This document shows positions 36,359 to 49,653 of a stretch of 64,000 bases of DNA, in pieces (positions within the stretch are counted from its first letter, which is position 1; the number at the start of each line of letters is the position of its first letter). The DNA comes from Chitinophagaceae bacterium (GTDB lineage: Bacteria; Bacteroidota; Bacteroidia; Chitinophagales; Chitinophagaceae). The notes under the pieces were generated by a model, which was not told the DNA's origin, ran no database searches, and worked only from the letters and a program-made list of their open reading frames with translations. Where the stretch lies: positions 1-64,000 of the forward strand of contig SEAD01000003.1 in assembly GCA_004173355.1 (NCBI GenBank). The letters run 5' to 3'. Made by a program: the position numbers and the translations under genes.

Positions 36359-37510
36359 ATGGCTGTAAACAATACATTAAAAATAATCCGTATTACCACG
36401 GGGGGTATGTTCCAGGACATCCTGCTGAAAGGCCAGTTACGATTCCTTTCACTTCACTTTGACATGGTATCCATTTCGGACCCTGACCAGCATCTCGTGA
36501 ATGTGGCAAATCGCGAAAGGGTACGGACCATTGGGGTTGAAATGAGCCGTGAAATATCCCCGGGTAAAGACCTCGTATCAATCAGGACGCTAAGGCAGGT
36601 TTTCCGGCGCGAAAAGCCCGACATCATCCATGTGTCCACACCCAAAGCCGGCTTGTTGGCGATGATTGCGGGAAAGTGGACCCGCGTTCCGGTACGGATG
36701 TTAACCCCGACAGGTTTTCGCTTCGTCGGACTTACCGGCCTGAAAAGGAAAATCGTTTTCTTTTTTGAAAAACTGCCACTGAGTTTTGCCACCCATATCT
36801 TTCCGGAAAGCCAGGGCGTTATCAACACCATCCGGCAGTACAAGATGACCAGGAAACCGCTGATGCTGATAGGTTCAGGGTCGGTGAACGGGGTCAACCT
36901 TGGGATATTCAGCGAGGGAGCAATCGATGCTGGAAAAATGGCAATCCTGAAAAAAGAAATCGATTTCGACCCATCATATAATTACCTGCTTTTCGTTGGA
37001 CGGATAGTAAAAGATAAAGGCATTACGGAACTGGTCGGCACATGGAAAAAGATCCCGGGAAAAAACAAACTAGTGGTCCTGGGACCCTTCGAGAAAGGAG
37101 ATCCGGTTCCCGGGCACATAGAGGACGAAATAAGGAATAATCCCGACATCATCCACATTGACTGGACCGATGACGTACATTATTTTATGGCACTGGCTAC
37201 TTTGCTGGTACACCCTTCCTACCGCGAAGGCTTACCTAATGTACTGCTTCAGGCAGGAGCCATGGGTTGTCCCATAATCTGTACGGCCATTGAAGGCAAT
37301 ATGGATATTGTGGACGATAAAATCAACGGTTTGCTTTTCCAGCCCCGTGATATAGGAACACTGGAAAAAACACTGGCTTTTGCGCTCGCCAATCCGGCTA
37401 CAATGCAGCAGTACGCAGGCAAACTGCGACAAAAGATTGAATATAAATTTGACCAGAAGTTGGTGCTTCAAGCCCTTGTGCGGCAATACCAGGAAGTTGC
37501 CGGAAAATGA
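36359..37510 (+). CDS. Glycosyltransferase family 4 (PglA/CapM-like)
   Basis: A 383-residue GT-B enzyme. It has TPKAGLLAMIAGKWTRVPVRMLTPTGFR, typical of the PglA/WcaA-like GT4 group acting early on lipid-linked amino sugars, and the donor motif HPSYREGLPNVLLQAGAMGCPIICTAIEGNMDIV. It overlaps the NeuD/PglD-like gene by 4 bases. With the PglC-like transferase at 41919, it probably adds the second sugar. Confidence 0.88.
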   Translation: MAVNNTLKIIRITTGGMFQDILLKGQLRFLSLHFDMVSISDPDQHLVNVANRERVRTIGVEMSREISPGKDLVSIRTLRQVFRREKPDIIHVSTPKAGLLAMIAGKWTRVPVRMLTPTGFRFVGLTGLKRKIVFFFEKLPLSFATHIFPESQGVINTIRQYKMTRKPLMLIGSGSVNGVNLGIFSEGAIDAGKMAILKKEIDFDPSYNYLLFVGRIVKDKGITELVGTWKKIPGKNKLVVLGPFEKGDPVPGHIEDEIRNNPDIIHIDWTDDVHYFMALATLLVHPSYREGLPNVLLQAGAMGCPIICTAIEGNMDIVDDKINGLLFQPRDIGTLEKTLAFALANPATMQQYAGKLRQKIEYKFDQKLVLQALVRQYQEVAGK

Positions 37511-38136
37511 ATAGTATGCAGAAAAAAGGAATAATCATAGTCGGATACTCCGGCCACTCTTACGTAGTAATCGACGCTTTCCGTCTCGCGGGATATGTAA
37601 TAGCCGGATACTGCGATAACGAAGAAAAAACAAACAACCCCTATGACCTTGCCTACTTTGGCCGGGAATCAGAGGCTGCGGAAAAAATAAGAGACTTTGG
37701 TTTTTTCGCAGCAGTAGGTCATAATGGCATCCGTGAAAAAATCCACAACTCACTCCGGCCAACTCTTGGCGATGCGGCGAACGCGATCCATCCCTCAGCG
37801 ATTATTGACTCCACTGCCGTGATAGGATCCGGTGTACTCGCCGCTGCCAATGTGGTAATCAACGCACAGGCATGGATCGGGGAAGGGGTGATCTGTAATA
37901 CTTCGTCAACGATCGAACATGAGTGCTTGATTGGCGGGTTTACCCATATTGCACCGGGCGCGGTGCTTTGCGGTAATGTAAAGGTAGGAGCCCGGTCATT
38001 TATCGGTGCCAACTCTGTGATAGCCCAGGGAATTACCATCGGTTCAGATGTAACTATCGGTGCGGGATCTGTGATCCTGAAGGATGTGCCGGACAATGTA
38101 ACAATGATTGGTAATCCCGGCCGTCAACCAACCTGA
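37507..38136 (+). CDS. NeuD/PglD-like sugar acetyltransferase
   Basis: A 209-residue protein. Its N-terminal Rossmann-like domain (IIIVGYSGHSYVVIDAFRLAGYVIAGYCDN) is followed by left-handed beta-helix hexapeptide repeats (about 90-205; segments such as IGANSVIAQGITIGSDVTIGAGSVI). PglD-type enzymes N-acetylate 4-amino UDP-sugars; NeuD types O-acetylate sialic acids. The LegC-like aminotransferase at 40745 could supply a 4-amino substrate. The choice between roles is open. Confidence 0.85.
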   Translation: MNSMQKKGIIIVGYSGHSYVVIDAFRLAGYVIAGYCDNEEKTNNPYDLAYFGRESEAAEKIRDFGFFAAVGHNGIREKIHNSLRPTLGDAANAIHPSAIIDSTAVIGSGVLAAANVVINAQAWIGEGVICNTSSTIEHECLIGGFTHIAPGAVLCGNVKVGARSFIGANSVIAQGITIGSDVTIGAGSVILKDVPDNVTMIGNPGRQPT

Positions 38137-38188
38137 TGCAGGCGAAACAAACTAAATTTGAAGGTCAAAACCGAATAATCCAAGCACT

Positions 38189-39712
38189 ATGTCCACACCT
38201 ATGATCGCAGGTTCACCAGTGAAGTCAGTCAACCCGTTAACGGGAAAACAATATGAGATCCCGCAAAACCACCGTGATACCGAAGGCATCGATGCCTTCC
38301 TCGCTTTACACCAGGGTAAAAAAGTGGTCCTGGTGCAAGGATTGGGTTTTGTCGGTGCCGTAATGAGCCTTGTGGTGGCTAATGCACTGACAGAAGAATA
38401 TGCTGTGATAGGTATTGATCTTCCCAGCCAGGCTGCCTGGTGGAAAATACAGGCAATTAATGAAGGAATGTTTCCCGTGATTGCTGACGATCCGAAAATC
38501 GAATTGTTTTACCAGGAGGCCCGTCGCAAAAAAAATCTTTATGCCACATCCGACCCGTACGCCTACGGGAAAGCAGATGTAGTGGTCGTGGATATCAACC
38601 TTGACGTCCAGAAAAAATCAGCTGGCGGCAACCTGGAGGATTTTGACGTGGACCTTACTCCGTTCAGAAAGGCTATTGAAAGTATAGGCACCAGCTGTAA
38701 ACCGGATGTGCTGGTTCTCGTCGAGACTACTGTGCCTCCGGGTACATGCGCAAAGGTGGTCAAACCTATTCTTGAAGAAAAGCTCCAGGCGCGCGGTCTC
38801 CCAACAGACGAGATACTTGTAGGCCATTCTTATGAGCGGGTGATGCCTGGCCCAAAATATATTGATTCCATCCAGAATTTCTTCCGTGTTTTTTCCGGGG
38901 TGGATGAACGAAGTGCCGTCGCAACTGAAAATTTCCTGCGCACCATTATCCGTACGGACGAGTATCCCCTGACGCGCCTGGGAGTCACCCATGCTACCGA
39001 AATGGCAAAAGTGCTGGAGAATTCTTACCGGGCAATGAACATCGCCTTTATTGTGGAATGGAGCCGATTTGCGGAAGAAGCAGGGGTGGACTTGTATGAG
39101 GTGGTGCACGCTATCCGCATGCGACCGACGCACAAAAACATTATGCTGCCCGGGCTTGGAGTGGGAGGATACTGTCTCACCAAAGACCCCCTGATGGCCA
39201 GCTGGGCGAAGATGAATCTTTTCGGCAGCGATACCGGCCTTGCACAAAGCGAAACCGGTGTGCGGATCAACGATCGCATGCCTTATCATGCCTACCATTT
39301 TCTGGTATCACAATACAATGACTCCCTCGCGGGGAAAAAAGTCCTGTTGCTCGGAGTCAGTTACCTTAACGACGTGGGGGATACCCGTTACACACCGGTC
39401 CAGGGTTTTTACGAGGAACTTGAAAAGGCGGGTGCGGATATCAGCCTGCATGATCCACATGTGGTATACTGGGAAGAAAAAGACCTGCAGGTTGTAAAAG
39501 ATCTTGACAAACTGCTGGATCAGTCACCTGACATTGTAGTGATAACCACGGGTCATAAAGAATATCGTAATAACCTTTCATTGCTGAATAAGCTTCTCGC
39601 CCTTCCGAAACTCTTCATTTACGATACAATCGGGATACTTACAGCAATGGAAATAAGCCTGCTTGCCGACAAACACAAAGTCCGCGTGATCGGACGGGGC
39701 GACCTTGTTTAA
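38189..39712 (+). CDS. Nucleotide sugar dehydrogenase (UDP-hexose/HexNAc 6-dehydrogenase)
   Basis: A 507-residue protein with an extra N-terminal stretch of about 45 residues. It has the NAD motif GLGFVGAVMS, the ETTVPPGTC segment and the catalytic Cys329 in GLGVGGYCLTKDP. It oxidises C6 of a UDP-sugar to the uronic acid in two steps. It is longer than typical Ugd (about 440). UDP-glucose or UDP-GlcNAc/GalNAc are possible substrates. The epimerase that follows probably uses its product. Confidence 0.88.
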   Translation: MSTPMIAGSPVKSVNPLTGKQYEIPQNHRDTEGIDAFLALHQGKKVVLVQGLGFVGAVMSLVVANALTEEYAVIGIDLPSQAAWWKIQAINEGMFPVIADDPKIELFYQEARRKKNLYATSDPYAYGKADVVVVDINLDVQKKSAGGNLEDFDVDLTPFRKAIESIGTSCKPDVLVLVETTVPPGTCAKVVKPILEEKLQARGLPTDEILVGHSYERVMPGPKYIDSIQNFFRVFSGVDERSAVATENFLRTIIRTDEYPLTRLGVTHATEMAKVLENSYRAMNIAFIVEWSRFAEEAGVDLYEVVHAIRMRPTHKNIMLPGLGVGGYCLTKDPLMASWAKMNLFGSDTGLAQSETGVRINDRMPYHAYHFLVSQYNDSLAGKKVLLLGVSYLNDVGDTRYTPVQGFYEELEKAGADISLHDPHVVYWEEKDLQVVKDLDKLLDQSPDIVVITTGHKEYRNNLSLLNKLLALPKLFIYDTIGILTAMEISLLADKHKVRVIGRGDLV

Positions 39713-39738
39713 ATAAATTCAAACTGCAAGAAATAATT

Positions 39739-40734
39739 ATGAAGAAAAAAGTCTTACTCCTCGGGGGTGCCGGTTTTATCGGGTACAACATCGGGAAATA
39801 CCTTGCGGAAAACCGCGATTATGAAATCACAATCGCCGACAATTTTGCCCGTGGGAAACAGGACCTGCTGTTTAATGAACTCGTGTCAACACATTCCATC
39901 AAGGTAGTGGAGGGTGATTATACAGATCCGGCTACATTCAATAAACTCGACACTACTTACGACCAGGTGTATATGCTTGCGTCGGTTGTGGGGGTAGACA
40001 ATGCCAATTCGATCCCGCATGAAATTATCCGGATCAATACGGCGCTGATCTATAACACGCTCGAATGGGTGCGCCGGTCCCGTATTGGCAAGGTACTCTT
40101 CACCTCCACCAGCGAGTGTTATGCAGGTACCATTGATGCATTCGGTTACAAGGTGCCCACACCGGAGGAAGTGCCATTGTGCATCGAGGATATCAGCCAC
40201 CCGCGTTTCACGTATGCCGTCACCAAGATGCTGGGTGAATCGGGTTTCCTGAACTATTCGCGCATCCTTGGTTTTGAAACAACCATCGTCCGCTACCACA
40301 ATGTATACGGTCCGCGCATGGGCTTCAAACACGTGATCCCGCACCTGGTTGTCCGTTTCAGGGATAAGGAAGATCCGTTTAAAGTTTACGGGCACGACCA
40401 GACCCGCGCTTTCTGTTATATCTCCGATGCAGTGGAAGGCACCGTGCTTGCCATGGAAACCGCCAATACCAACGGACAGATCTATCATATCGGCACCCAG
40501 GAAGAGATCACTATTGGCGAACTGATACATTTTACCGGTGACCATCTCGGCTACACCGGCAGCTACGAAAACGCACCCACGTATCCGGGTTCGGTATCCC
40601 GCCGTTGTCCCGATATTACCAAGGCACGCACGCAGCTTGGGTTTGAGCCAAAGGTCAGCTGGCAGCAGGGATTGTCACAGACAATCGACTGGTACAACAA
40701 TTATCTTGAAGAAGGCAACAAGGTTTACGAATAA
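39739..40734 (+). CDS. NAD-dependent sugar epimerase/dehydratase
   Basis: A 331-residue extended SDR. It has the NAD motif GGAGFIGYN (9-17), TSTSECY (catalytic Ser/Thr region) and the Tyr-x-x-x-Lys motif in FTYAVTK. It lies 26 bases after the UDP-sugar dehydrogenase and 10 before the LegC-like aminotransferase. It could be a uronate epimerase, a decarboxylase, or the dehydratase preceding transamination; sequence alone does not decide. Confidence 0.82.
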   Translation: MKKKVLLLGGAGFIGYNIGKYLAENRDYEITIADNFARGKQDLLFNELVSTHSIKVVEGDYTDPATFNKLDTTYDQVYMLASVVGVDNANSIPHEIIRINTALIYNTLEWVRRSRIGKVLFTSTSECYAGTIDAFGYKVPTPEEVPLCIEDISHPRFTYAVTKMLGESGFLNYSRILGFETTIVRYHNVYGPRMGFKHVIPHLVVRFRDKEDPFKVYGHDQTRAFCYISDAVEGTVLAMETANTNGQIYHIGTQEEITIGELIHFTGDHLGYTGSYENAPTYPGSVSRRCPDITKARTQLGFEPKVSWQQGLSQTIDWYNNYLEEGNKVYE

Positions 40735-40744
40735 CAAACACAGC

Positions 40745-41896
40745 ATGGCCAACGAACAACTGATACCCCTCAGCCTTCCGAATATTTCCGGTAATGAATG
40801 GAAGTATGTGAAAGATTGCCTCGATACCGGGTGGATATCCTCCGTAGGAGCCTATGTTACGCAGTTTGAACAGATGGTTGCCGATTTCGCCGGTGCCCGG
40901 TATGGAGTGGCGGCAGTAAACGGTACCGCTGCATTACATATTTCCATGCTGCTCTCCGGGGTAAAGCCGGGGGATTATGTGATTGTATCAAACCTCACTT
41001 TTGTAGCATCAGCCAACTCCATCAGATACCTCGGCGCAGATCCATTACTGATCGATGCAGATAATGATCTCTGGCAGATGGACCTTGACCTGCTGGAGGA
41101 ATTCCTTGCATCGGAAACGGAGACAAGGGGTGAAGAACTGTTCTTTAAAAAAGACGGACGCCGCATCGGTGCGATTATGCCGGTGCACATCCTGGGGAAT
41201 ATCTTCGATGTGGACCGGTTCCTGTCCATTGTCAGCGGTTACCCGCTCCCGGTGGTGGAAGATGCCACGGAAGCACTCGGGTCAACCTATAATGGAAAAC
41301 ATGCCGGCACATTCAGTTCGCTTGGCTGTTTCAGTTTTAATGGCAACAAAATCATATCCACCGGTGGCGGCGGAGTGATAGTAACCGATGATGAGGCACT
41401 GGCGAAACATGCAAAACATATTACCACTACGGCAAAGGCAAGCGCAGATGAATACTACCACGATGAAGTCGGCTACAATTACCGCCTGGTGAATATCCTG
41501 GCGGCAGTTGGTGTGGCGCAGATGGAGCAACTGCCGGGGTTTATTGAGCGGAAAAAACAGATCGTCAGTTTTTACAAGGATGCATTCAGGGATATCGATG
41601 ACATCACTTACCAGCAGCAACTGCCGGAAGTGGATACCAATGGCTGGCTCTTTACGATCCGGAGCAGCCGTTCCGCTGAAATCCTTTCACACCTGAATGC
41701 CAATAAAATCCTGAGTCGCCGGTTCTGGATGCCTATGAACAAACTGCCGATGTATTCAACGGCTCCGTATATCACAAGGAAAGACCTGTCAGACAGCATA
41801 TACAACAGCTGCCTGAGTATCCCGAGTTCGACCAATATCACCGACGCGGAGCTCGAAATTGTCGCCCGCGAAATCAGGTCTGTATTCAACAAATAA
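40745..41896 (+). CDS. LegC-like PLP aminotransferase
   Basis: 383 residues from ATG 40745 (MANEQLIPLSLPNISGNEWKYV). It is of the DegT/DnrJ/EryC1 family, close to the LegC type (LSLPNISGNEWKYVKDCLDTGWISSVG). The PLP lysine is Lys202 in FNGNKIISTGGGG. It would aminate C4 of a 4-keto-6-deoxy sugar nucleotide. No LegB, LegI or LegF is present, so a UDP-diamino sugar (bacillosamine-like) is more likely than legionaminic acid. Confidence 0.87.
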   Translation: MANEQLIPLSLPNISGNEWKYVKDCLDTGWISSVGAYVTQFEQMVADFAGARYGVAAVNGTAALHISMLLSGVKPGDYVIVSNLTFVASANSIRYLGADPLLIDADNDLWQMDLDLLEEFLASETETRGEELFFKKDGRRIGAIMPVHILGNIFDVDRFLSIVSGYPLPVVEDATEALGSTYNGKHAGTFSSLGCFSFNGNKIISTGGGGVIVTDDEALAKHAKHITTTAKASADEYYHDEVGYNYRLVNILAAVGVAQMEQLPGFIERKKQIVSFYKDAFRDIDDITYQQQLPEVDTNGWLFTIRSSRSAEILSHLNANKILSRRFWMPMNKLPMYSTAPYITRKDLSDSIYNSCLSIPSSTNITDAELEIVAREIRSVFNK

Positions 41897-41918
41897 AGCC
41901 CCTTCCATAACAGTTACC

Positions 41919-42602
41919 ATGTACCCATTTTTCAAGCGGCTTGCGGATATCATTTTCTCCCTCACTGCACTCATCATCCTTTCTCCCTTGCTGGTGCCGG
42001 TTGTGATCCTGCTGGCCATTACAGGAGAACATTATATTTTTTACCGGCAGGACCGGGTGGGTCACCGCAACAGGATTTTCGGGATCCTGAAATTTGCAAC
42101 CATGCTCAGGGACAGTCCAAATATGGGAGCAGGTGACATGACCACACGGAATGACCCGCGTGTTACTTCCATGGGACGTTTCCTTCGCAAGACAAAACTC
42201 AATGAACTGCCGCAGCTGCTGAATATCCTCCTGGGTGATATGTCATTTGTTGGCCCCCGCCCCCTGATGAAGGTGGGATTTGACCGGTACTCGGAAGAAA
42301 TGAAGGCAAAAGTGTACCTGGTCAAACCCGGACTGACCGGGATCGGTTCCATTGTTTTCCGGGATGAAGAGCTGATCCTCACCCGCAGCAAACTCCCGCC
42401 CCACGAGTGTTACCGCGATATTATACTCCCCTACAAAGGTGCCGTGGAAGTCTGGTACCAGCAGCATTATTCCTTCTACACAGACTTTATGATCCTTTTC
42501 CTGACCGCCTGGTATATCATTTTTTCAAAAAGCCAGCTGGTTTACAGGGTCTTTCCGGGTCTACCGCAACAGCCCGCAGAGATGCTGGCCGCGACCGTTT
42601 AA
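41919..42602 (+). CDS. PglC-type phosphoglycosyl transferase (initiating sugar transferase)
   Basis: 227 residues from ATG 41919 (MYPFFKRLADIIFSL). It is a small monotopic phosphoglycosyl transferase with one membrane helix (about 8-28), YRQDRVGHRNRIFGILKFATM, and the signature SFVGPRPLM. It transfers a sugar phosphate to undecaprenyl phosphate and so starts repeat-unit synthesis. The gene sits at the distal end of the locus, next to the genes likely to make its sugar. Confidence 0.92.
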   Translation: MYPFFKRLADIIFSLTALIILSPLLVPVVILLAITGEHYIFYRQDRVGHRNRIFGILKFATMLRDSPNMGAGDMTTRNDPRVTSMGRFLRKTKLNELPQLLNILLGDMSFVGPRPLMKVGFDRYSEEMKAKVYLVKPGLTGIGSIVFRDEELILTRSKLPPHECYRDIILPYKGAVEVWYQQHYSFYTDFMILFLTAWYIIFSKSQLVYRVFPGLPQQPAEMLAATV

Positions 42603-42635
42603 TAAGTTGTATTTTCGGCCGTATAAATCCACCAT

Positions 42636-43382
42636 ATGTTCGGGCTGTTCTCCAAAAAATCATCAAAGACGGGCGAAGCTTTTGCCTTCAGCGACCTGGC
42701 GATCGATATGCACTCGCATATCCTGCCGGGTATCGATGATGGTTCCCCCGATCTCGACACTTCGCTGCAGCTCATCCGTGGCCTGCAGGAACTCGGCTAT
42801 AAAAAACTCATCGCCACACCCCATGTACTCTGGGACATGTTCCGCAACACCCCCGACACGATCCGTGAAAAACTCGATCTGGTACGCAAGGCAGTGCAGA
42901 AAGAGGGTATAGATATCGAGATCGATGCGGCTGCAGAATACTTCCTTGACGAACATGTAAATGAATTACTGGCAAAAAAGGAGCGCCTGCTGACCATCAG
43001 CGGCAACAAGGTATTGTTTGAATTTTCCATGGCGTATCCCCCTTTCAATGTCAAGGACACGTTGTTTGAAATGCAGATGCAGGGATACGAACCGGTTTTT
43101 GTACATCCGGAGCGCTACAGTTACCTGCTGCGTAACAAGGAATTTTATGATGAGATGAAAGAGATCGGCTGCACCTTCCAGCTGAATATCCTGTCCCTCA
43201 GCGGACAGTACGGGAAAGGGGTAACGGAGCTCAGCCACCATCTCCTCAAAAAAGATTATTACGACCTGCTGGGTACCGACCTGCACCACAGCAATCACCT
43301 TGCACTGCTGCGCCAGTTCCATACCGGACTCTTTCCCGCCGGCTTTGAATTCGAGGGCCGGTTCATTAACAACCGGTTGTAA
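42636..43382 (+). CDS. CpsB/YwqE-like PHP tyrosine-protein phosphatase
   Basis: A 248-residue PHP-family metallophosphatase. The metal-binding start is IDMHSHILPGIDDGSPD (His26, His28, Asp34/Asp35), followed by KKLIATPHV and later GTDLHHSNH. It should dephosphorylate the tyrosine tail of the Wzc-like kinase. It is the last gene of the capsule operon. Confidence 0.9.
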   Translation: MFGLFSKKSSKTGEAFAFSDLAIDMHSHILPGIDDGSPDLDTSLQLIRGLQELGYKKLIATPHVLWDMFRNTPDTIREKLDLVRKAVQKEGIDIEIDAAAEYFLDEHVNELLAKKERLLTISGNKVLFEFSMAYPPFNVKDTLFEMQMQGYEPVFVHPERYSYLLRNKEFYDEMKEIGCTFQLNILSLSGQYGKGVTELSHHLLKKDYYDLLGTDLHHSNHLALLRQFHTGLFPAGFEFEGRFINNRL

Positions 43383-43423: not shown

Positions 43424-44299
43424 ATGAATGCCTTTACCATCAAGGATCTGGAGAATCTCTCCGGTATTAAAGCCCACACTATCCGTATGTGGGAACAGCG
43501 GTATACTTTCCTCAAGCCAAGGAGGAGTGATACCAATATCCGCTACTATAGTAATGACGAATTAAAAACGCTGCTGAACATCGCGTTACTCAACCGTTTC
43601 GGTTTCCGTATTTCGCACATCGACAAAATGGATAACAGCGAGATCTGTGAAAAGGTGCTCTCACTCAGGGATGCGGAAGCACTCCAGGAGCGGGTGGTCA
43701 ATACACTGGTCAGTCAGATGATCGACCTGCAGACGGACAATTTTGAAATGACACTCGGCAAGTATATCCGTTGCAACGGGCTTGAACAGTCGATCCGCGA
43801 AATCATTTTCCCCTTCCTTGAAAAGATCGGCATACTGTGGCAGACAGGTCATATCATGCCCGCACAGGAACATTTCGTTTCCAACCTGATCCGGCAGAAA
43901 GTAATCGTTGCAATTGATAATCTCGGGATCTGTGATGGCGATTCCACCTGTATCCTCTTCCTTCCCGAAGGGGAACATCACGAGATCGGCCTGCTCTTTT
44001 TATCTTACCTGCTCAAGCAGCGCAATCATAAAGTTATTTACCTGGGCGCCAATGTTCCCTTTGCCGATTATGTAAGTATTGTGGACACCATGAAGCCACA
44101 ATATGCCTTTATCCACCTGACTGCCACAAGCGCCAGTTTCAACTTCGACCGGCTGGTCAGCAATATCCGGCTGCAGGCAGGCCATATCCCCACAATTATC
44201 TCCGGTTTCCCCACCCATGCGTACTACAAACCCCTTCCGGCCTGCGTACAGTTCAAAAAAAGCTACCGGGAGATTTCGGAATTTATCTCAACCCTCTGA
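43424..44299 (+). CDS. carH: CarH/LitR-like B12-dependent MerR photoreceptor regulator
   Basis: A 291-residue protein. It has a MerR HTH (TIKDLENLSGIKAHTIRMWEQRYTFLKPRRS, 5-35), a four-helix B12-cap domain and a C-terminal cobalamin-binding Rossmann domain. The cap has Trp139 and Glu149-His150 in the exact W-x9-EH spacing that marks CarH/CarA sensors. The B12 ligand motif E-x-H-x-x-G is E184-H-H186-E-I-G189. The residue after Trp139 is Gln, where T. thermophilus CarH has His132. In the family, light cleaves adenosylcobalamin and lifts repression. It lies directly before the sigma factor and crt genes. Confidence 0.9.
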   Translation: MNAFTIKDLENLSGIKAHTIRMWEQRYTFLKPRRSDTNIRYYSNDELKTLLNIALLNRFGFRISHIDKMDNSEICEKVLSLRDAEALQERVVNTLVSQMIDLQTDNFEMTLGKYIRCNGLEQSIREIIFPFLEKIGILWQTGHIMPAQEHFVSNLIRQKVIVAIDNLGICDGDSTCILFLPEGEHHEIGLLFLSYLLKQRNHKVIYLGANVPFADYVSIVDTMKPQYAFIHLTATSASFNFDRLVSNIRLQAGHIPTIISGFPTHAYYKPLPACVQFKKSYREISEFISTL

Positions 44300-44367: not shown

Positions 44368-44375
44368 TATTTTTG
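44368..44375 (+). promoter_or_regulatory. -7 element of the sigma factor promoter
   Basis: TATTTTTG matches TAnnTTTG, 36 bases upstream of the start codon. No TTTG stands 19-21 bases before it, so the promoter may depend on a bound regulator. Confidence 0.45.
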
Positions 44376-44411
44376 TTTAATTTTACGATCTAATAAATTA
44401 AACAATCAAAT

Positions 44412-44912
44412 ATGTCCTCCAAAGATTTTGACGAAGTATTGGTCGAAAATGCCGACTTCCTCAAGCCCTTTGCCATTAACCTGACAAGGGACACCGAGGC
44501 TGCCAACGACCTGTACCAGGAAACCCTGTACAAGGCATTAGCAAATAAAGAGAAGTATTACACAGGCACGAACATCAAGGCCTGGTTGTTTACCATCATG
44601 CGTAATATTTTTATAAATAATTACCGCAGGAAGGCCAAACAGAAAACGATTTTTGACAATACCCCGAACGAGTTCCTGATCAATATGAAACAGGTCTCGG
44701 TAACTAATAACGCAGAAAGCGCGTTAAGGTTGAAAGAGATCCAGACTGCGATCGAGGGATTGCCCGAAATTTTCAAAACACCATTCCTCCTGTATTTTGA
44801 CGGTTACAAATACCAGGAGATCGCTGACGTGCTCGCGGAACCCCTTGGTACCGTAAAAAGCCGGATCCACTTTGCCAGGAAACTCCTGAAAGAGCGGATC
44901 AGCAGGTATTGA
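44412..44912 (+). CDS. ECF-type RNA polymerase sigma factor
   Basis: A 166-residue sigma-70 family protein with region 2 (DLYQETLYKALANKEKYYTGTNIKAWLFTIMRNIFINNYRR) and region 4 (GLPEIFKTPFLLYFDGYKYQEIADVLAEPLGTVKSRIHFARKLLKE). There is no adjacent anti-sigma gene. It sits between the CarH-like regulator and crtI, like the light-induced ECF sigma factors of other carotenoid systems (LitS, CarQ). It probably drives crt transcription, which is inference from position. Confidence 0.9.
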   Translation: MSSKDFDEVLVENADFLKPFAINLTRDTEAANDLYQETLYKALANKEKYYTGTNIKAWLFTIMRNIFINNYRRKAKQKTIFDNTPNEFLINMKQVSVTNNAESALRLKEIQTAIEGLPEIFKTPFLLYFDGYKYQEIADVLAEPLGTVKSRIHFARKLLKERISRY

Positions 44913-44950: not shown

Positions 44951-45021
44951 AACAGATTGTCTGTTCGTTGAATAAAGCCCGCTTTTTTGCCGGATTTCGT
45001 TCAACGAATACACAATCTGTT
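44951..45021. promoter_or_regulatory. 22-bp imperfect inverted repeat in the crt promoter region
   Basis: The left arm (44951-44972) begins AACAGATTGT and ends GTTCGTTGAA. The right arm (45000-45021) begins TTCAACGAA and ends ACAATCTGTT. The arms are reverse complements at 20 of 22 positions, with a 27-base spacer. The right arm ends 29 bases before the crtI start. It could be an operator, or a weak terminator of the sigma gene (TTTTCGTTTT follows). Confidence 0.5.
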
Positions 45022-45050: not shown

Positions 45051-46547
45051 ATGAGTATAAAACCCGACCGGAACAGAGTGATAGTGATTGGTAGCGGATT
45101 TGCCGGCCTCTCGGCGGCATCTTTCCTCGCTAAGGCGGGATGGGATGTAACCGTACTTGAAAAAAACGCGACCGCCGGTGGCCGGGCAAGGCAATGGAAA
45201 TCGGATGGGTTCACCTTCGATATGGGACCCAGTTTTTACTGGATGCCCGATGTGTTTGACCGGTACTTCGCACAGTTCGGCAAAAAGACAACCGACTATT
45301 ACAAACTTACCAGGCTCGATCCTTCGTACCGTGTGTACTGGAAAGAAGGATATACCGATATCCCCGCATCAACAGACGAACTGAAAATCATTTTTGATTC
45401 GATTGAACCCGGTTCCGGTGCAAAGCTCGACGAATACCTTGAAGGCGCACGGTACAAGTACGAGGTGGGGATGAAACGCCTCGTTTACAAACCCGGTCGT
45501 TCGCTCACTGAATTCATGGACTGGCCAACCATCAGCGGTGTATTCCGGCTGGATGTTTTTTCGAGCATGAGCAAGCATATCCGCAGGTATTTTACCAGCC
45601 CCAAACTGCGGCAGCTGATGGAATTCCCGGTACTGTTTTTGGGAGCTTTACCCGAGGATACACCAGCGCTGTACAGCCTGATGAACTATGCCGATATCAA
45701 GGGTGGCACATGGTTTCCTGAAGGTGGTATGTACTCGGTGGTGAAAGGAATGTATGAGCTTGCGCTTGAGCTGGGTGTACAGTTCCGGTTTAATGAGGAA
45801 GTAACAGGAATCAGTATTGTAAAAAACAGTGCAAAACAGGTAACGACGATCTCCGGGACTTACGAGGCTGATGTTGTGGTGAGCGGAGCGGACTACCAGT
45901 TTACCGAATCGGCCCTGCTGCCGGAAGCAAGTCGCTCCTACAACGATAAATACTGGGATAAACGCGTGATGGCTCCTTCCTGCCTGCTTTATTATGTAGG
46001 GATTAATAAAAAACTGGCGGGATTACCTCATCACTCCCTGTTCTTTGATGCCGCATTTGACCAGCACGGACACGAGATTTACCGGGATCCGAAATGGCCG
46101 GCTGATCCGCTGTTTTATGCCAGCATCGCATCTGTGACGGATAAAGACGCTGCACCGGAAGGCATGGAAAACCTTTTTTTCCTGGTACCCGTGGCCGCCG
46201 GTTTGCAAAACGATACGGAGGAATTGCGGGAACGTTATTTTAACCAGATCATGGATCGGTTTGAAACCCGCACCGGACAGGTAATACGTGATTCAATCGT
46301 TTATAAAAAAACCTACAGTGTATCCGATTTCGTAAATGATTACCATAGTTTCCGCGGCAATGCTTACGGTCTCGCCAATACCCTGATGCAGACAGCTGTT
46401 TTCAAACCATCCTGTAAAAGCAAAAAAGTAAAAAACCTTTTTTATACCGGGCAGCTGACAGTACCCGGACCTGGCGTACCGCCATCGCTGATAAGTGGTG
46501 AGGTAGTAGCCAGTGAAGTAATTAAAACATTTGTGCAGCCAATATGA
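45051..46547 (+). CDS. crtI: Phytoene desaturase
   Basis: A 498-residue FAD-dependent carotenoid desaturase. The dinucleotide fold is VIVIGSGFAGLSAASFLAKAGWDVTVLEK followed by GGRARQW; the C-terminal CrtI signature is FYTGQLTVPGPGVPPSLISGEVVA. It desaturates phytoene to lycopene. It overlaps crtB by 4 bases and is the first gene of the crtI-crtB-idi-crtZ-crtY operon. Confidence 0.95.
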   Translation: MSIKPDRNRVIVIGSGFAGLSAASFLAKAGWDVTVLEKNATAGGRARQWKSDGFTFDMGPSFYWMPDVFDRYFAQFGKKTTDYYKLTRLDPSYRVYWKEGYTDIPASTDELKIIFDSIEPGSGAKLDEYLEGARYKYEVGMKRLVYKPGRSLTEFMDWPTISGVFRLDVFSSMSKHIRRYFTSPKLRQLMEFPVLFLGALPEDTPALYSLMNYADIKGGTWFPEGGMYSVVKGMYELALELGVQFRFNEEVTGISIVKNSAKQVTTISGTYEADVVVSGADYQFTESALLPEASRSYNDKYWDKRVMAPSCLLYYVGINKKLAGLPHHSLFFDAAFDQHGHEIYRDPKWPADPLFYASIASVTDKDAAPEGMENLFFLVPVAAGLQNDTEELRERYFNQIMDRFETRTGQVIRDSIVYKKTYSVSDFVNDYHSFRGNAYGLANTLMQTAVFKPSCKSKKVKNLFYTGQLTVPGPGVPPSLISGEVVASEVIKTFVQPI

Positions 46548-47410
46548 TCGGACTTTTCCATACCAGCAGCTCGAAGTGCAGTAAGGTGATTACTGAAACC
46601 TACAGCACTTCTTTTGCATCGGCCATCCGCCTGCTGCACCGGGACCTGCGTGCGCCCATCTGCCATATCTACGGCTTCGTACGACTGGCAGACGAAATTG
46701 TTGATACATTCCATGAACATGATAAGGCAACACTGCTTGCGGAATTCAAAACGGAAACATTCAATGCTATCAAACGCGGCATCAGTCTTAACCCGATCCT
46801 GGAGAGTTTCCAGCTGACGGTAAATGAGTACAAGATCGGCCACGACCTGATCCATGCTTTCTTCAAAAGCATGGAAATGGATTTATCCCGGTCGACCTAC
46901 GACAGGAACGGGTATGATGAATATATTTATGGTTCGGCAGAAGTAGTCGGATTAATGTGCCTCCAGGTTTTCTGTGAAGGCAAACGTGAGCTCTACGAAA
47001 CACTGGTGGCACCTGCAAGGGCGCTGGGTTCTGCCTTCCAGAAGGTGAATTTCCTGCGGGATATCAGGGCTGACCATATGGATCTTTCGCGTACGTATTT
47101 CCCGGCGGTTGACCTCAGCAATTTTACGGAATGTGACAAGCGTGAGATTGAAACACAGATCCGGGCTGAATTCCACGAAGCTTACCGCGGTATCATCCAC
47201 CTGCCGCTGAAGGCGCGCTTTGGGGTTTACGTGGCATATAAATATTACCTGAGCCTGTTTAACAAGATCACCCGTATTAAACCTGCACGGATGATGGAAG
47301 AAAGGATCCGGATCCCGGATTACTACAAGGTGATGATCCTGCTGCGCGCGGGGATTAAAAACAAGCTGAACCTGATTACGCCCCAGGCCGTTGGGCAGGC
47401 ACATAAATAA
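46544..47410 (+). CDS. crtB: Phytoene synthase
   Basis: A 288-residue trans-isoprenyl diphosphate synthase (head-to-head). The aspartate-rich motifs are DEIVD (in VRLADEIVDTFHE) and DIRAD (in NFLRDIRADHMDLSRTYFP). It joins two geranylgeranyl diphosphates to phytoene. No GGPP synthase gene is in the window. Confidence 0.94.
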   Translation: MIGLFHTSSSKCSKVITETYSTSFASAIRLLHRDLRAPICHIYGFVRLADEIVDTFHEHDKATLLAEFKTETFNAIKRGISLNPILESFQLTVNEYKIGHDLIHAFFKSMEMDLSRSTYDRNGYDEYIYGSAEVVGLMCLQVFCEGKRELYETLVAPARALGSAFQKVNFLRDIRADHMDLSRTYFPAVDLSNFTECDKREIETQIRAEFHEAYRGIIHLPLKARFGVYVAYKYYLSLFNKITRIKPARMMEERIRIPDYYKVMILLRAGIKNKLNLITPQAVGQAHK

Positions 47411-47452: not shown

Positions 47453-47983
47453 ATGAGTCAGGAACTGGTACTGGTAAACGAACAAGACGAGCAGACGGGT
47501 ACAGGCGAAAAGATGGCCGTGCATCGTGAAGGACTGCTGCATCGCGCTTTCAGCGTATTTGTTTTCAATAAGCGGGGCGAAATGTTATTGCAGCGCCGGA
47601 GCCTCTCAAAATATCACAGTGGTGGTTTATGGACAAATGCCTGCTGCAGCCACCCTGCCCCGGGTGAAGCCGTGGCAGATGCCGCGACCAAACGACTGGT
47701 GGAGGAAATGGGATTCAGTGTGCCACTTGAAAAAGTATTTGATTTTATCTATAAGGCAGGATTTGGCAACGGCCTTACGGAATATGAATTTGATCATGTA
47801 TTGGTTGGTGAGTATGAGGGATCGATTGACTATAACCCGGACGAAGTGATGGAATTCCGTTACCTGCCAATGGATCAGCTGGAAGCTTCGATTGAAGCGG
47901 AGCCGGGAATTTATACCGAATGGTTCAAACTCGCGTTTCCGCGGGTCGCTGCCTGGTGGATGGGTCGTTATAAAAATGTTTAG
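47453..47983 (+). CDS. idi: Isopentenyl-diphosphate delta-isomerase, type I
   Basis: A 176-residue Nudix-fold isomerase. The active-site cysteine segment is TNACCSHPAPGE, and the acidic metal-binding segment EYEFDHVLVGEYEG holds the second catalytic residue region. It interconverts IPP and DMAPP and raises precursor supply for carotenoids. Its stop overlaps the crtZ start by 8 bases. Confidence 0.93.
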   Translation: MSQELVLVNEQDEQTGTGEKMAVHREGLLHRAFSVFVFNKRGEMLLQRRSLSKYHSGGLWTNACCSHPAPGEAVADAATKRLVEEMGFSVPLEKVFDFIYKAGFGNGLTEYEFDHVLVGEYEGSIDYNPDEVMEFRYLPMDQLEASIEAEPGIYTEWFKLAFPRVAAWWMGRYKNV

Positions 47984-48494
47984 TATGGTCGTGTTGTATT
48001 TTATACTCGTTTTAATTGCCACTTTCCTCGTGATGGAAGGGATCACATGGCTGACGCACAAATATGTGATGCACGGTTTCCTCTGGTACCTGCACAAGGA
48101 CCATCACCAGGTGCAACCCGGCTTTTTTGAAAAGAACGATGCGTTTTTTGTGATTTTTGCAGTCCCGAGCATGGCCCTGATTTTCCTGGGTACATTTAAC
48201 CATGTATGGTGGATGCAGGCTATCGGTTTTGGAATCATGGCTTATGGCGCTGCTTATTTCATCGTGCATGATGTGATCATCCACCAGCGTTTCAGGTGGT
48301 TTACCAGGAGCAACAGTTCATACATCCGGTCCATCCGCTGGGCACATAAGATGCACCATAAACACCTTGACCGCTTTGACGGTGAAAGTTTCGGTATGCT
48401 GCTGGTTGCCCGTAAATACCGCGACAAAGTGAGGAAAGACAAAAAACTCATGGCGGGTTCAAAAAAAGTCGGTTACGCACCGGAAGCCGATTAA
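47976..48494 (+). CDS. crtZ: Beta-carotene hydroxylase
   Basis: 172 residues from ATG 47976 (MFSMVVLYFILVL); ATG 47985 is an alternative start. It is a membrane di-iron hydroxylase with histidine clusters HKYVMH, HKDHH, HDVIIHQRF and HKMHHKH. It adds hydroxyls to the beta rings, giving zeaxanthin from beta-carotene. The upstream frame to 47892 lies inside idi and is rejected as a start. Confidence 0.92.
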   Translation: MFSMVVLYFILVLIATFLVMEGITWLTHKYVMHGFLWYLHKDHHQVQPGFFEKNDAFFVIFAVPSMALIFLGTFNHVWWMQAIGFGIMAYGAAYFIVHDVIIHQRFRWFTRSNSSYIRSIRWAHKMHHKHLDRFDGESFGMLLVARKYRDKVRKDKKLMAGSKKVGYAPEAD

Positions 48495-48504
48495 ACCATC
48501 CACT

Positions 48505-49653
48505 TTGCAGGAATCATCCTCATACGATTTTATTATCGCCGGCAGCGGTTGCGCCGGACTCAGCCTCCTGGTGCAAATCCTGGCCGAGCCATCACTGCGG
48601 GATAAAAAAATCCTGCTTATTGACCGGGAACAGAAAAACAGCAACGACCGGACCTGGTGTTTCTGGGAAACAAAACCCGGCCCATTTGAAAGCGTGGTAA
48701 AAAAACAATGGGATGAACTCTGGTTCCGGTCCATGACCCTGTCGAGGTTATTTAAACTCCACCCATACAAATACAAGCTGATCCGCGGGCTTGATTTCTA
48801 CCAGTACTGTGAATCGCTGATCAGCCGCGCATCAAACGTTGAACGGCGTATTGAAACGGTCACCGATGTTGGTGAGGATGCCCGTGGCCCTTATGTGGAG
48901 AGTGAAGCGGGAAAAGTCTATGCTACCTATGTTTTTAACAGCCTGCTTTTTGAAAAGCCCGTGATGGGCAAAAATGAGTATTACCTCCTGCAGCATTTCC
49001 GGGGATGGCTGATTGAGACCCCGGTGCCGGCTTTTGATCCGAAACAGGCAACCATGATGGACTTCCGTACCAGCCAGCACCACGGCGCTACATTTGTGTA
49101 TGTAATGCCATTTTCGGAAACAGAGGCGCTGGTGGAGTACACTCTTTTCAGCCGCGACCTGTTGCAGGATGGGGAGTATGTGTCAGGCCTCAAAAATTAT
49201 ATCGAACAGCGGCTTGGCATTACAGACTACCAGGTAAAGGAAGAGGAAAACGGTGTGATCCCGATGACCAATTTTGCTTTTTCCCGTGGGCGCGGCGGGC
49301 TGGTGAATATCGGTACGGCGGGTGGCCAGACCCGGGGGTCATCCGGGTATACCTTCCAGTTTATCCAGCGCCATTCAGCCGCTATTGTCAGGGCGCTCAG
49401 GCAGGGCAAAAGTCCATTGCTTCCACTGACAGGCCGTGAAAAACGCGCTGCCTTCTACGACAGCGTCCTGCTCGATATACTTTACAACGAAACGTTGCCG
49501 GCACATGAAATCTTTACGCGCCTCTTTGCACGCAACGAGCCGGTAAAAGTGCTGCGATTCCTCGATAAGGATAACACTATACCCGAAGACTTCCGGCTGG
49601 TGTCCTCCCTTCCCACCATGCCCTTCCTGAAAGCAGCCATCAAACAATTCTGA
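48505..49653 (+). CDS. crtY: Lycopene cyclase
   Basis: 382 residues from TTG 48505 (MQESSSYDFIIAGSGCAGLSLLVQIL). It is a FAD/NAD-fold CrtY-type lycopene beta-cyclase with DRTWCFWE near residue 50 and the GTAGGQTRGSSGYTF segment. It forms the beta rings of beta-carotene. It is the last gene of the operon and converges on a minus-strand membrane protein gene with no gap. Confidence 0.9.
   Translation: MQESSSYDFIIAGSGCAGLSLLVQILAEPSLRDKKILLIDREQKNSNDRTWCFWETKPGPFESVVKKQWDELWFRSMTLSRLFKLHPYKYKLIRGLDFYQYCESLISRASNVERRIETVTDVGEDARGPYVESEAGKVYATYVFNSLLFEKPVMGKNEYYLLQHFRGWLIETPVPAFDPKQATMMDFRTSQHHGATFVYVMPFSETEALVEYTLFSRDLLQDGEYVSGLKNYIEQRLGITDYQVKEEENGVIPMTNFAFSRGRGGLVNIGTAGGQTRGSSGYTFQFIQRHSAAIVRALRQGKSPLLPLTGREKRAAFYDSVLLDILYNETLPAHEIFTRLFARNEPVKVLRFLDKDNTIPEDFRLVSSLPTMPFLKAAIKQF

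Follow-up and report, generated by a model that had tools for sequence, protein, structure and literature searches.

A predicted CarH-type regulator in a Chitinophagaceae bacterium, the variable Trp+1 position of its Bacteroidota relatives and a candidate inverted-repeat operator

The protein encoded at positions 43424-44299 of the window (the whole stretch of 64,000 nucleotides analysed here, from contig SEAD01000003.1 of a Chitinophagaceae bacterium) is probably a Bacteroidota variant of CarH: an adenosylcobalamin (AdoCbl) photoreceptor that would act, through an inverted repeat, as a light-released repressor of an ECF sigma factor gene and whose light state would not be bis-His ligated. The histidine that follows the conserved tryptophan in Thermus thermophilus CarH (TtCarH His132) is replaced in this protein by a glutamine and is nearly absent from the Bacteroidota homologues that we compared. 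Within the literature searched this near-absence is apparently undescribed. No paper searched names both CarH and a Chitinophaga-type organism, although such an absence is no proof of absence from the literature at large. The phylum-wide count of the residue following the tryptophan (Trp+1) and the predicted operator are new to this study.

A CarH-type protein with glutamine in place of His132

The open reading frame, which the sequence-only reading had delimited identically, encodes 291 amino acids followed by a stop codon, with the following features.

43424..44299, + strand: CarH-type regulator with a MerR DNA-binding and a cobalamin-binding domain, 291 aa (ORF and translation, Pfam, TtCarH match, predicted domain compared with TtCarH)
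43433..43633, + strand: MerR helix-turn-helix domain, residues 4-70, with an RxWExRY recognition helix (Pfam PF13411, MerR_1, E 2e-14, above cut-off)
43700..43903, + strand: four-helix bundle capping the adenosyl side, residues 93-160 (Pfam PF02607, B12-binding_2, above cut-off)
43838..43843, + strand: Trp139-Gln140, equivalent to TtCarH Trp131-His132 (alignment columns)
43868..43873, + strand: Glu149-His150, the EH of W-x9-EH (alignment)
43964..44224, + strand: Rossmann B12-binding domain, residues 181-267, with E184-x-H186-x-x-G189 (Pfam PF02310 and fold match)

Likeness to TtCarH (reference: the T. thermophilus HB8 plasmid copy) is beyond chance, since phmmer matched the two proteins with E ~2e-21. 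Pfam and structure comparison revealed the CarH/LitR class I architecture, namely a MerR helix-turn-helix followed by a four-helix bundle and then by a Rossmann B12 domain, the PF02310 (B12-binding) score of 31.4 bits being slightly below the cut-off of 32.1. When aligned with TtCarH, W139/W131, Q140/H132, E149/E141 and H150/H142 share columns, as do G183/G174, H186/H177, G208/G199 and P212/P203. The adenosyl-contact motif W-x9-EH (W139, E149, H150) is intact in this alignment, the D/ExHx2G lower-ligand motif is present (E184, H186, G189) and the light signature is complete (G136xxW139, E149H150, G183xxH186, G208xxxP212), GxxW/EH/GxxH/GxxxP being the signature published for cobalamin domains that respond to light (PMC11796333). 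The sequence-only reading had noted a glutamine directly after the tryptophan, where TtCarH has His132, and the alignment agrees: Gln140 sets the protein apart from the TtCarH-like bis-His subtype, which carries histidine at Trp+1. The exact spacing of Trp139, Glu149-His150 and His186 had been ascribed to both CarH and CarA, but W-x9-EH is a feature of CarH and not of CarA, as Myxococcus xanthus CarA is devoid of this tryptophan (PMC9304148). Trp139 being present, the protein does not display the loss that marks the B12-independent CarA-type paralogue.

Other TtCarH features have diverged. The alignment does not recover the full form of the classical DxHxxG-SxT/V-GG motif: TtCarH Ser222-x-Val224 is replaced by His231-x-Thr233 and Gly247-Gly248 by Ser260-Gly261, both changes being frequent among Bacteroidota homologues. 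These changes alone do not exclude CarH membership because both parts lie outside the validated light signature. The Arg176-Asp201 salt bridge of the TtCarH head-to-tail dimer is absent as well, with His and Asn in those columns, and the Arg176/Asp201, SxV and GG columns are usually altered in Bacteroidota as a whole too. Since dimer-interface residues and the SxV and GG parts are changed, the oligomer state or the binding of the cobalamin tail may differ, and a dark tetramer as in TtCarH cannot be assumed for this protein. The NCBIfam equivalog TransRegCarH (NF052513) gave 110.7 bits against the 400 or more required, a cut-off that the 14 named control genomes all fail as well.

In an AlphaFold2 model built from 22 family members (mean pLDDT 85.9), the predicted cobalamin domain best matched TtCarH crystal structures (Z 19.0, 2.5 A over 194 residues for chain 8C37_C, the TtCarH H132A variant), followed by the photoreceptors SasPcob (Z 17.6) and CtMerR (Z 17.3). 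Fold likeness is by itself no proof of the same function; in this model it is consistent with the conserved residues. TtCarH (PDB 5C8D/5C8E/5C8F, 8C31-8C37) and the present protein are alike in domain order, fold (Z up to 19), W-x9-EH, ExHxxG with a His lower ligand, GxxxP and linkage to carotenoid genes, whereas Gln for His132, His/Asn for Arg176-Asp201, HxT and SG for SxV and GG, a candidate operator that is inverted and not composed of tandem direct repeats, and an ECF sigma gene as the predicted target distinguish the protein studied here. The same genome encodes a cobalamin adenosyltransferase of the PduO type (PF01923, E 4e-63), and two cobalamin riboswitches in it exceed the gathering score, which indicates that the host regulates B12-related genes and can probably produce AdoCbl. 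The prediction of an AdoCbl photoreceptor made by the sequence-only reading is well supported by sequence, predicted fold, light signature, neighbourhood and AdoCbl supply, and we consider it most likely that the protein binds the cofactor and responds to light.

The Trp+1 position in Bacteroidota and its expected photochemistry

CarH homologues were found in 94 of the 149 sampled family genomes. Our unfiltered alignment of 218 sequences, from the Chitinophagaceae family, other Bacteroidota, Thermus and a few proteobacterial relatives, retains W139 in 210 homologues, E149 in 210, H150 in 207 and H186 in 203. The Trp+1 position was then counted among 177 Bacteroidota representatives thinned at 90% identity and required to carry the W, EH and H residues, so that the zero entropy of the W/E/H columns in this set is by construction. 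Gln was found in 49 representatives, Leu in 42, Met in 19, Gly in 16, Ile in 11, Val in 10 and His in 3, and the column ranks 199 of 260 by entropy. A FastTree tree with 184 tips requires at least 65 changes of the residue (3 changes for His/non-His, 15 for Gln/non-Gln). We conclude that the site of the TtCarH bis-His ligand is among the freely varying sites in Bacteroidota, beside a near-invariant pocket. Covariation of position 140 with pocket positions was also considered; the strongest links (z up to 4.7) were to the N-terminal DNA-binding domain and most likely reflect shared ancestry. Gln at Trp+1 is real but, judging from these alignments, not peculiar to the protein, nearly all of its Bacteroidota relatives also being devoid of His. 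With His nearly absent, the textbook light-response mechanism of CarH is probably inapplicable to this whole branch. Degenerate CarH paralogues, in which several of the residues Trp, EH and His are gone, were observed in Chitinophagaceae (loci L127, L149, L155, L156, L157 and L158) and are possibly B12-independent regulators like CarA.

Published systems indicate what may be expected from a CarH protein devoid of this histidine. TtCarH H132A undergoes photolysis, does not form the bis-His state and is mostly tetrameric in light, an earlier report of its disassembly being mentioned in the same paper (PMC10442372). The residue equivalent to Trp+1 is Arg in CtMerR, Gln in SasPcob and Tyr in AbDPcob (PMC11796333), for which the authors proposed distinct photochemical mechanisms in which ligation is water-mediated or by hydroxide; natural CtMerR and SasPcob end as water/hydroxide-ligated cobalamin (PMC11796333, PMC10979010). 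SasPcob of Saccharothrix syringae (PDB 8J2W/8J2X, fold Z 17.6) resembles the present protein by its AdoCbl domain and by Gln at the His132 position (PMC11796333), but it is a photocobilin with a bilin-binding domain and not a MerR DNA-binding regulator. CtMerR of Chloracidobacterium thermophilum (PDB 8JBS/8JBT, fold Z 17.1 to 17.3) is a MerR-type AdoCbl photoreceptor likewise devoid of His, but it has Arg instead of Gln and comes from another phylum. Myxococcus xanthus CarH and CarA share the MerR and B12 domains, carotenoid control and TnnACA half-sites, and differ in that His is present in many myxobacterial CarH proteins while CarA is the Trp-less, B12-independent form (PMC9304148).

Variation at the His132 site, natural Gln included, has been in print since 2024 (PMC11796333, PMC10979010), and the variation and its likely consequence are already known. 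By analogy, photochemistry without bis-His ligation is likely for the protein at 43424-44299, yet expected, because non-His light states, including that of SasPcob with its Gln, have been published. The suggestion of the sequence-only reading that the photoproduct may differ was reasonable in view of TtCarH H132A, CtMerR and SasPcob; the idea is sound, not specific to this protein, of which Gln is no special trait, and partly anticipated by these publications.

Carotenoid gene neighbourhood and a candidate CarH operator

As previously noticed, the MerR gene lies beside carotenoid genes. The gene order is carH-ECF-crtI-crtB-idi. The features downstream of carH are the following.

44374..44404, no strand assigned: candidate CarH operator, perfect inverted repeat TGTTTAA-N17-TTAAACA (conservation in the carH-ECF intergenic region; one of three genome copies)
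44378..44385, + strand: TAnnTTTG-like box TAATTTTA within the operator's left arm, a putative Bacteroidota -7 promoter element (TAnnTTT[GA] register in family sites)
44412..44912, + strand: ECF sigma factor gene, likely direct target (Pfam Sigma70_r2/r4; conserved carH-ECF-crtI-crtB-idi order)
45051..46547, + strand: crtI/crtD-type phytoene desaturase (NCBIfam CrtID above cut-off)
46544..47410, + strand: phytoene synthase, crtB (Pfam SQS_PSY, E 1e-41)
47453..47983, + strand: isopentenyl-diphosphate isomerase, idi (NCBIfam PRK03759 and TIGR02150 above cut-off)
47976..48494, + strand: putative carotene hydroxylase, crtZ-like and rich in His (name given on inspection only; position in the crt cluster; no match in Pfam or NCBIfam)
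48505..49653, + strand: lycopene cyclase, crtY-like (Pfam Lycopene_cycl, E 6e-53)

Most close family loci keep the order carH-ECF sigma-crtI-crtB-idi-crtZ-(crtY), often preceded by cpsB. Terrimonas ginsenosidimutans NA20 (L035), a species that can be cultivated, shares the gene order seen here. Directly upstream, at 37507-43382 of the window, are exopolysaccharide-type genes (sugar dehydrogenase, epimerase, aminotransferase, sugar transferase and CpsB), and cpsB adjoining carH recurs in many relatives. A 31-nt inverted repeat, 81% complementary and present as a single copy in the genome, lies at 44951-45021 between the ECF gene and crtI; it may form an RNA stem-loop or act as an attenuator upstream of crtI. 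The nearest relative (locus L160) has by eye a similar arrangement, with arms that have changed yet still mostly pair.

Among 73 carH-ECF intergenic regions, 64 contain an inverted repeat of the operator type with at most one mismatch, whereas shuffled sequences would yield 1.4; the spacer is 16-17 in 63 of the 64 positive loci. Two copies are present in about half of the carH-ECF loci, ~55-57 bp apart among the pairs listed. The Bacteroidota -7 promoter element is TAnnTTTG, and we take the operator-overlapping box at 44378..44385 to match it; the left arm of the operator runs into TAnnTTT[GA] at the same register in 45 of 55 aligned family sites. The repeat also precedes crtI in several loci that have no ECF gene, it stays before ECF-crtI where these genes sit apart from carH in the genome, and among other Bacteroidota (mostly Flavobacteriaceae) 15 of 22 loci have it directly at the start of carH or slightly overlapping that start. 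Its presence in 78 of 94 genomes with carH versus 8 of 55 without is a contrast inflated by relatedness; within genera, all 8 discordant pairs go in the expected direction (sign test p 0.008).

The half-sites TTAAACA and TTAGACA contain TAAACA and TAGACA, in agreement with the published CarH half-site TnnACA, which forms tandem direct repeats in the TtCarH, BmCarH and myxobacterial operators (PMC9304148). Tandem 11-bp TnnACA direct repeats in the style of TtCarH were found two in register in 6 of 69 carH-ECF regions (1.0 expected). The tandem design was rejected as an explanation of these loci because the other 63 regions have at most one repeat. The inverted repeat at 44374-44404 is proposed as a candidate CarH operator of inverted and not tandem design.

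Three copies of the repeat with spacer 16-17 are present in the genome, one before the ECF gene and two before genes for fasciclin-domain proteins. A fourth genome-wide match, on contig C209 with spacer 20, is located within an ORF and was treated as chance. The fasciclin-domain genes (secreted or lipoprotein; L159:6073-6591 and L271:390-1367) are directly downstream of the repeat, and both adjoin a second copy of crtB and also a second CarH-like gene, which is truncated at a contig end. The latter runs off the end of contig C255 (L159, 80000-88789) beside the second crtB and a LytTR response regulator, contig C95 (L271, 1-222) starts with the apparent C-terminal end of a CarH-like protein, and the two contigs may adjoin. 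Fasciclin genes follow the repeat in two other genomes too (L309, L317). The same inverted repeat standing directly upstream, co-regulation of these genes with carotenoids is likely, and since algal fasciclin domains can bind carotenoids (PMC10147662), the analogy suggests carotenoid-binding proteins as targets. On a plasmid of Eleftheria terrae (L227), a CarH-like gene adjoins a fasciclin gene. Elsewhere, two genomes have the repeat close to group 2 sigma factor genes of the RpoD/RpoS-like kind (L324:1541, L312:1490), where the regulon may extend to a general stress sigma factor, and the repeat also lies upstream of a SOUL heme-binding-like protein gene (L318:1520).

Proposed light switch and competing explanations

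In the dark, the protein would bind AdoCbl base-off with His186 as the lower ligand and with Trp139 and Glu149 packing the adenosyl group. As a dimer or higher oligomer it would sit on TGTTTAA-N17-TTAAACA, covering the -7 element and the start region of the ECF gene, and this occupancy would silence the ECF gene and, with it, the crt genes downstream. Illumination with green or blue light would cleave the Co-C bond, the adenosyl group would leave and the operator would be released, upon which the ECF sigma factor would turn on crtI-crtB-idi-crtZ-crtY. Because Trp+1 is not His, the light state would most likely resemble that of SasPcob, CtMerR and TtCarH H132A, with His186 holding a Co(III) that is ligated by water/hydroxide, and would not be a bis-His state. 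Direct operator binding and repression are likewise most likely.

The assignment of the repeat is the point at which a different explanation weighs most, although we still regard it as unlikely that the site serves another regulator while the CarH protein binds elsewhere. The genome does contain further regulators, including the second CarH-like gene, 9 of 73 carH-ECF loci are devoid of the repeat and some copies lie near unrelated genes; however, the repeat tracks carH across genomes and within genera, abuts carH in Flavobacteriaceae and has a half-site that fits the CarH consensus. Activation of the ECF gene in light, instead of repression, has a published counterpart in Streptomyces coelicolor, where the B12 light regulator LitR controls a sigma factor, LitS, that drives crt transcription, and where LitR is described as promoting litS transcription in light (PMC12705666). 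That system, which belongs to Actinobacteria, shares the regulator, sigma factor and crt logic, yet the candidate operator described here overlaps a -7-like box and the presumed start region, a position suiting repression, and a light-dependent activator appears distinctly unlikely.

It is also quite unlikely that light is not the signal at all and that the protein, with or without bound cobalamin, responds to B12 levels or to singlet oxygen. Motif presence is no proof of light sensing, the dimer interface and the tail-binding motif are altered, and CarA provides a precedent for the loss of B12 dependence (PMC9304148). But CarA has lost the Trp (PMC9304148), while this protein and ~95% of its relatives retain Trp and EH, and the linkage to carotenoid genes is strong. 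Finally, a CarH-type photoreceptor could still form a bis-His state if another histidine (e.g. His143 at Trp+4, His150 or His185) replaced His132. In the AlphaFold2 model, in which residues 120-140 form a helix, His143 lies in the loop directly after the Trp helix; 62 of the 177 representatives have His in this column, and His150 is near-invariant. Against such a replacement, Trp+4 is mostly Lys, Thr, Asn or Arg in the other representatives, there is no compensation with Trp+1, all three proteins with His at Trp+1 also having His143, and SasPcob with its Gln gives a water/hydroxide state (PMC10979010). An alternative ligand is therefore very unlikely in our opinion.

We give about even chances to the broader proposal that Bacteroidota CarH proteins form a distinct subclass, in which light release proceeds without bis-His ligation, the oligomer interface of the dark state is altered and a symmetrically bound TGTTTAA-N16/17-TTAAACA operator controls an ECF sigma factor, the carotenoid genes and fasciclin-domain proteins that are secreted. 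In the current CarH model, ligation by His132 is the step that drives oligomer disassembly. If the distinct-subclass proposal is true, the published His132-driven switch would be a lineage-specific refinement and not the general CarH mechanism. A widespread, conserved family that keeps the adenosyl-contact residues while varying Trp+1 amounts to a natural experiment on the His132 model, and the Bacteroidota CarH family may yield green-light switches whose photoproducts differ.
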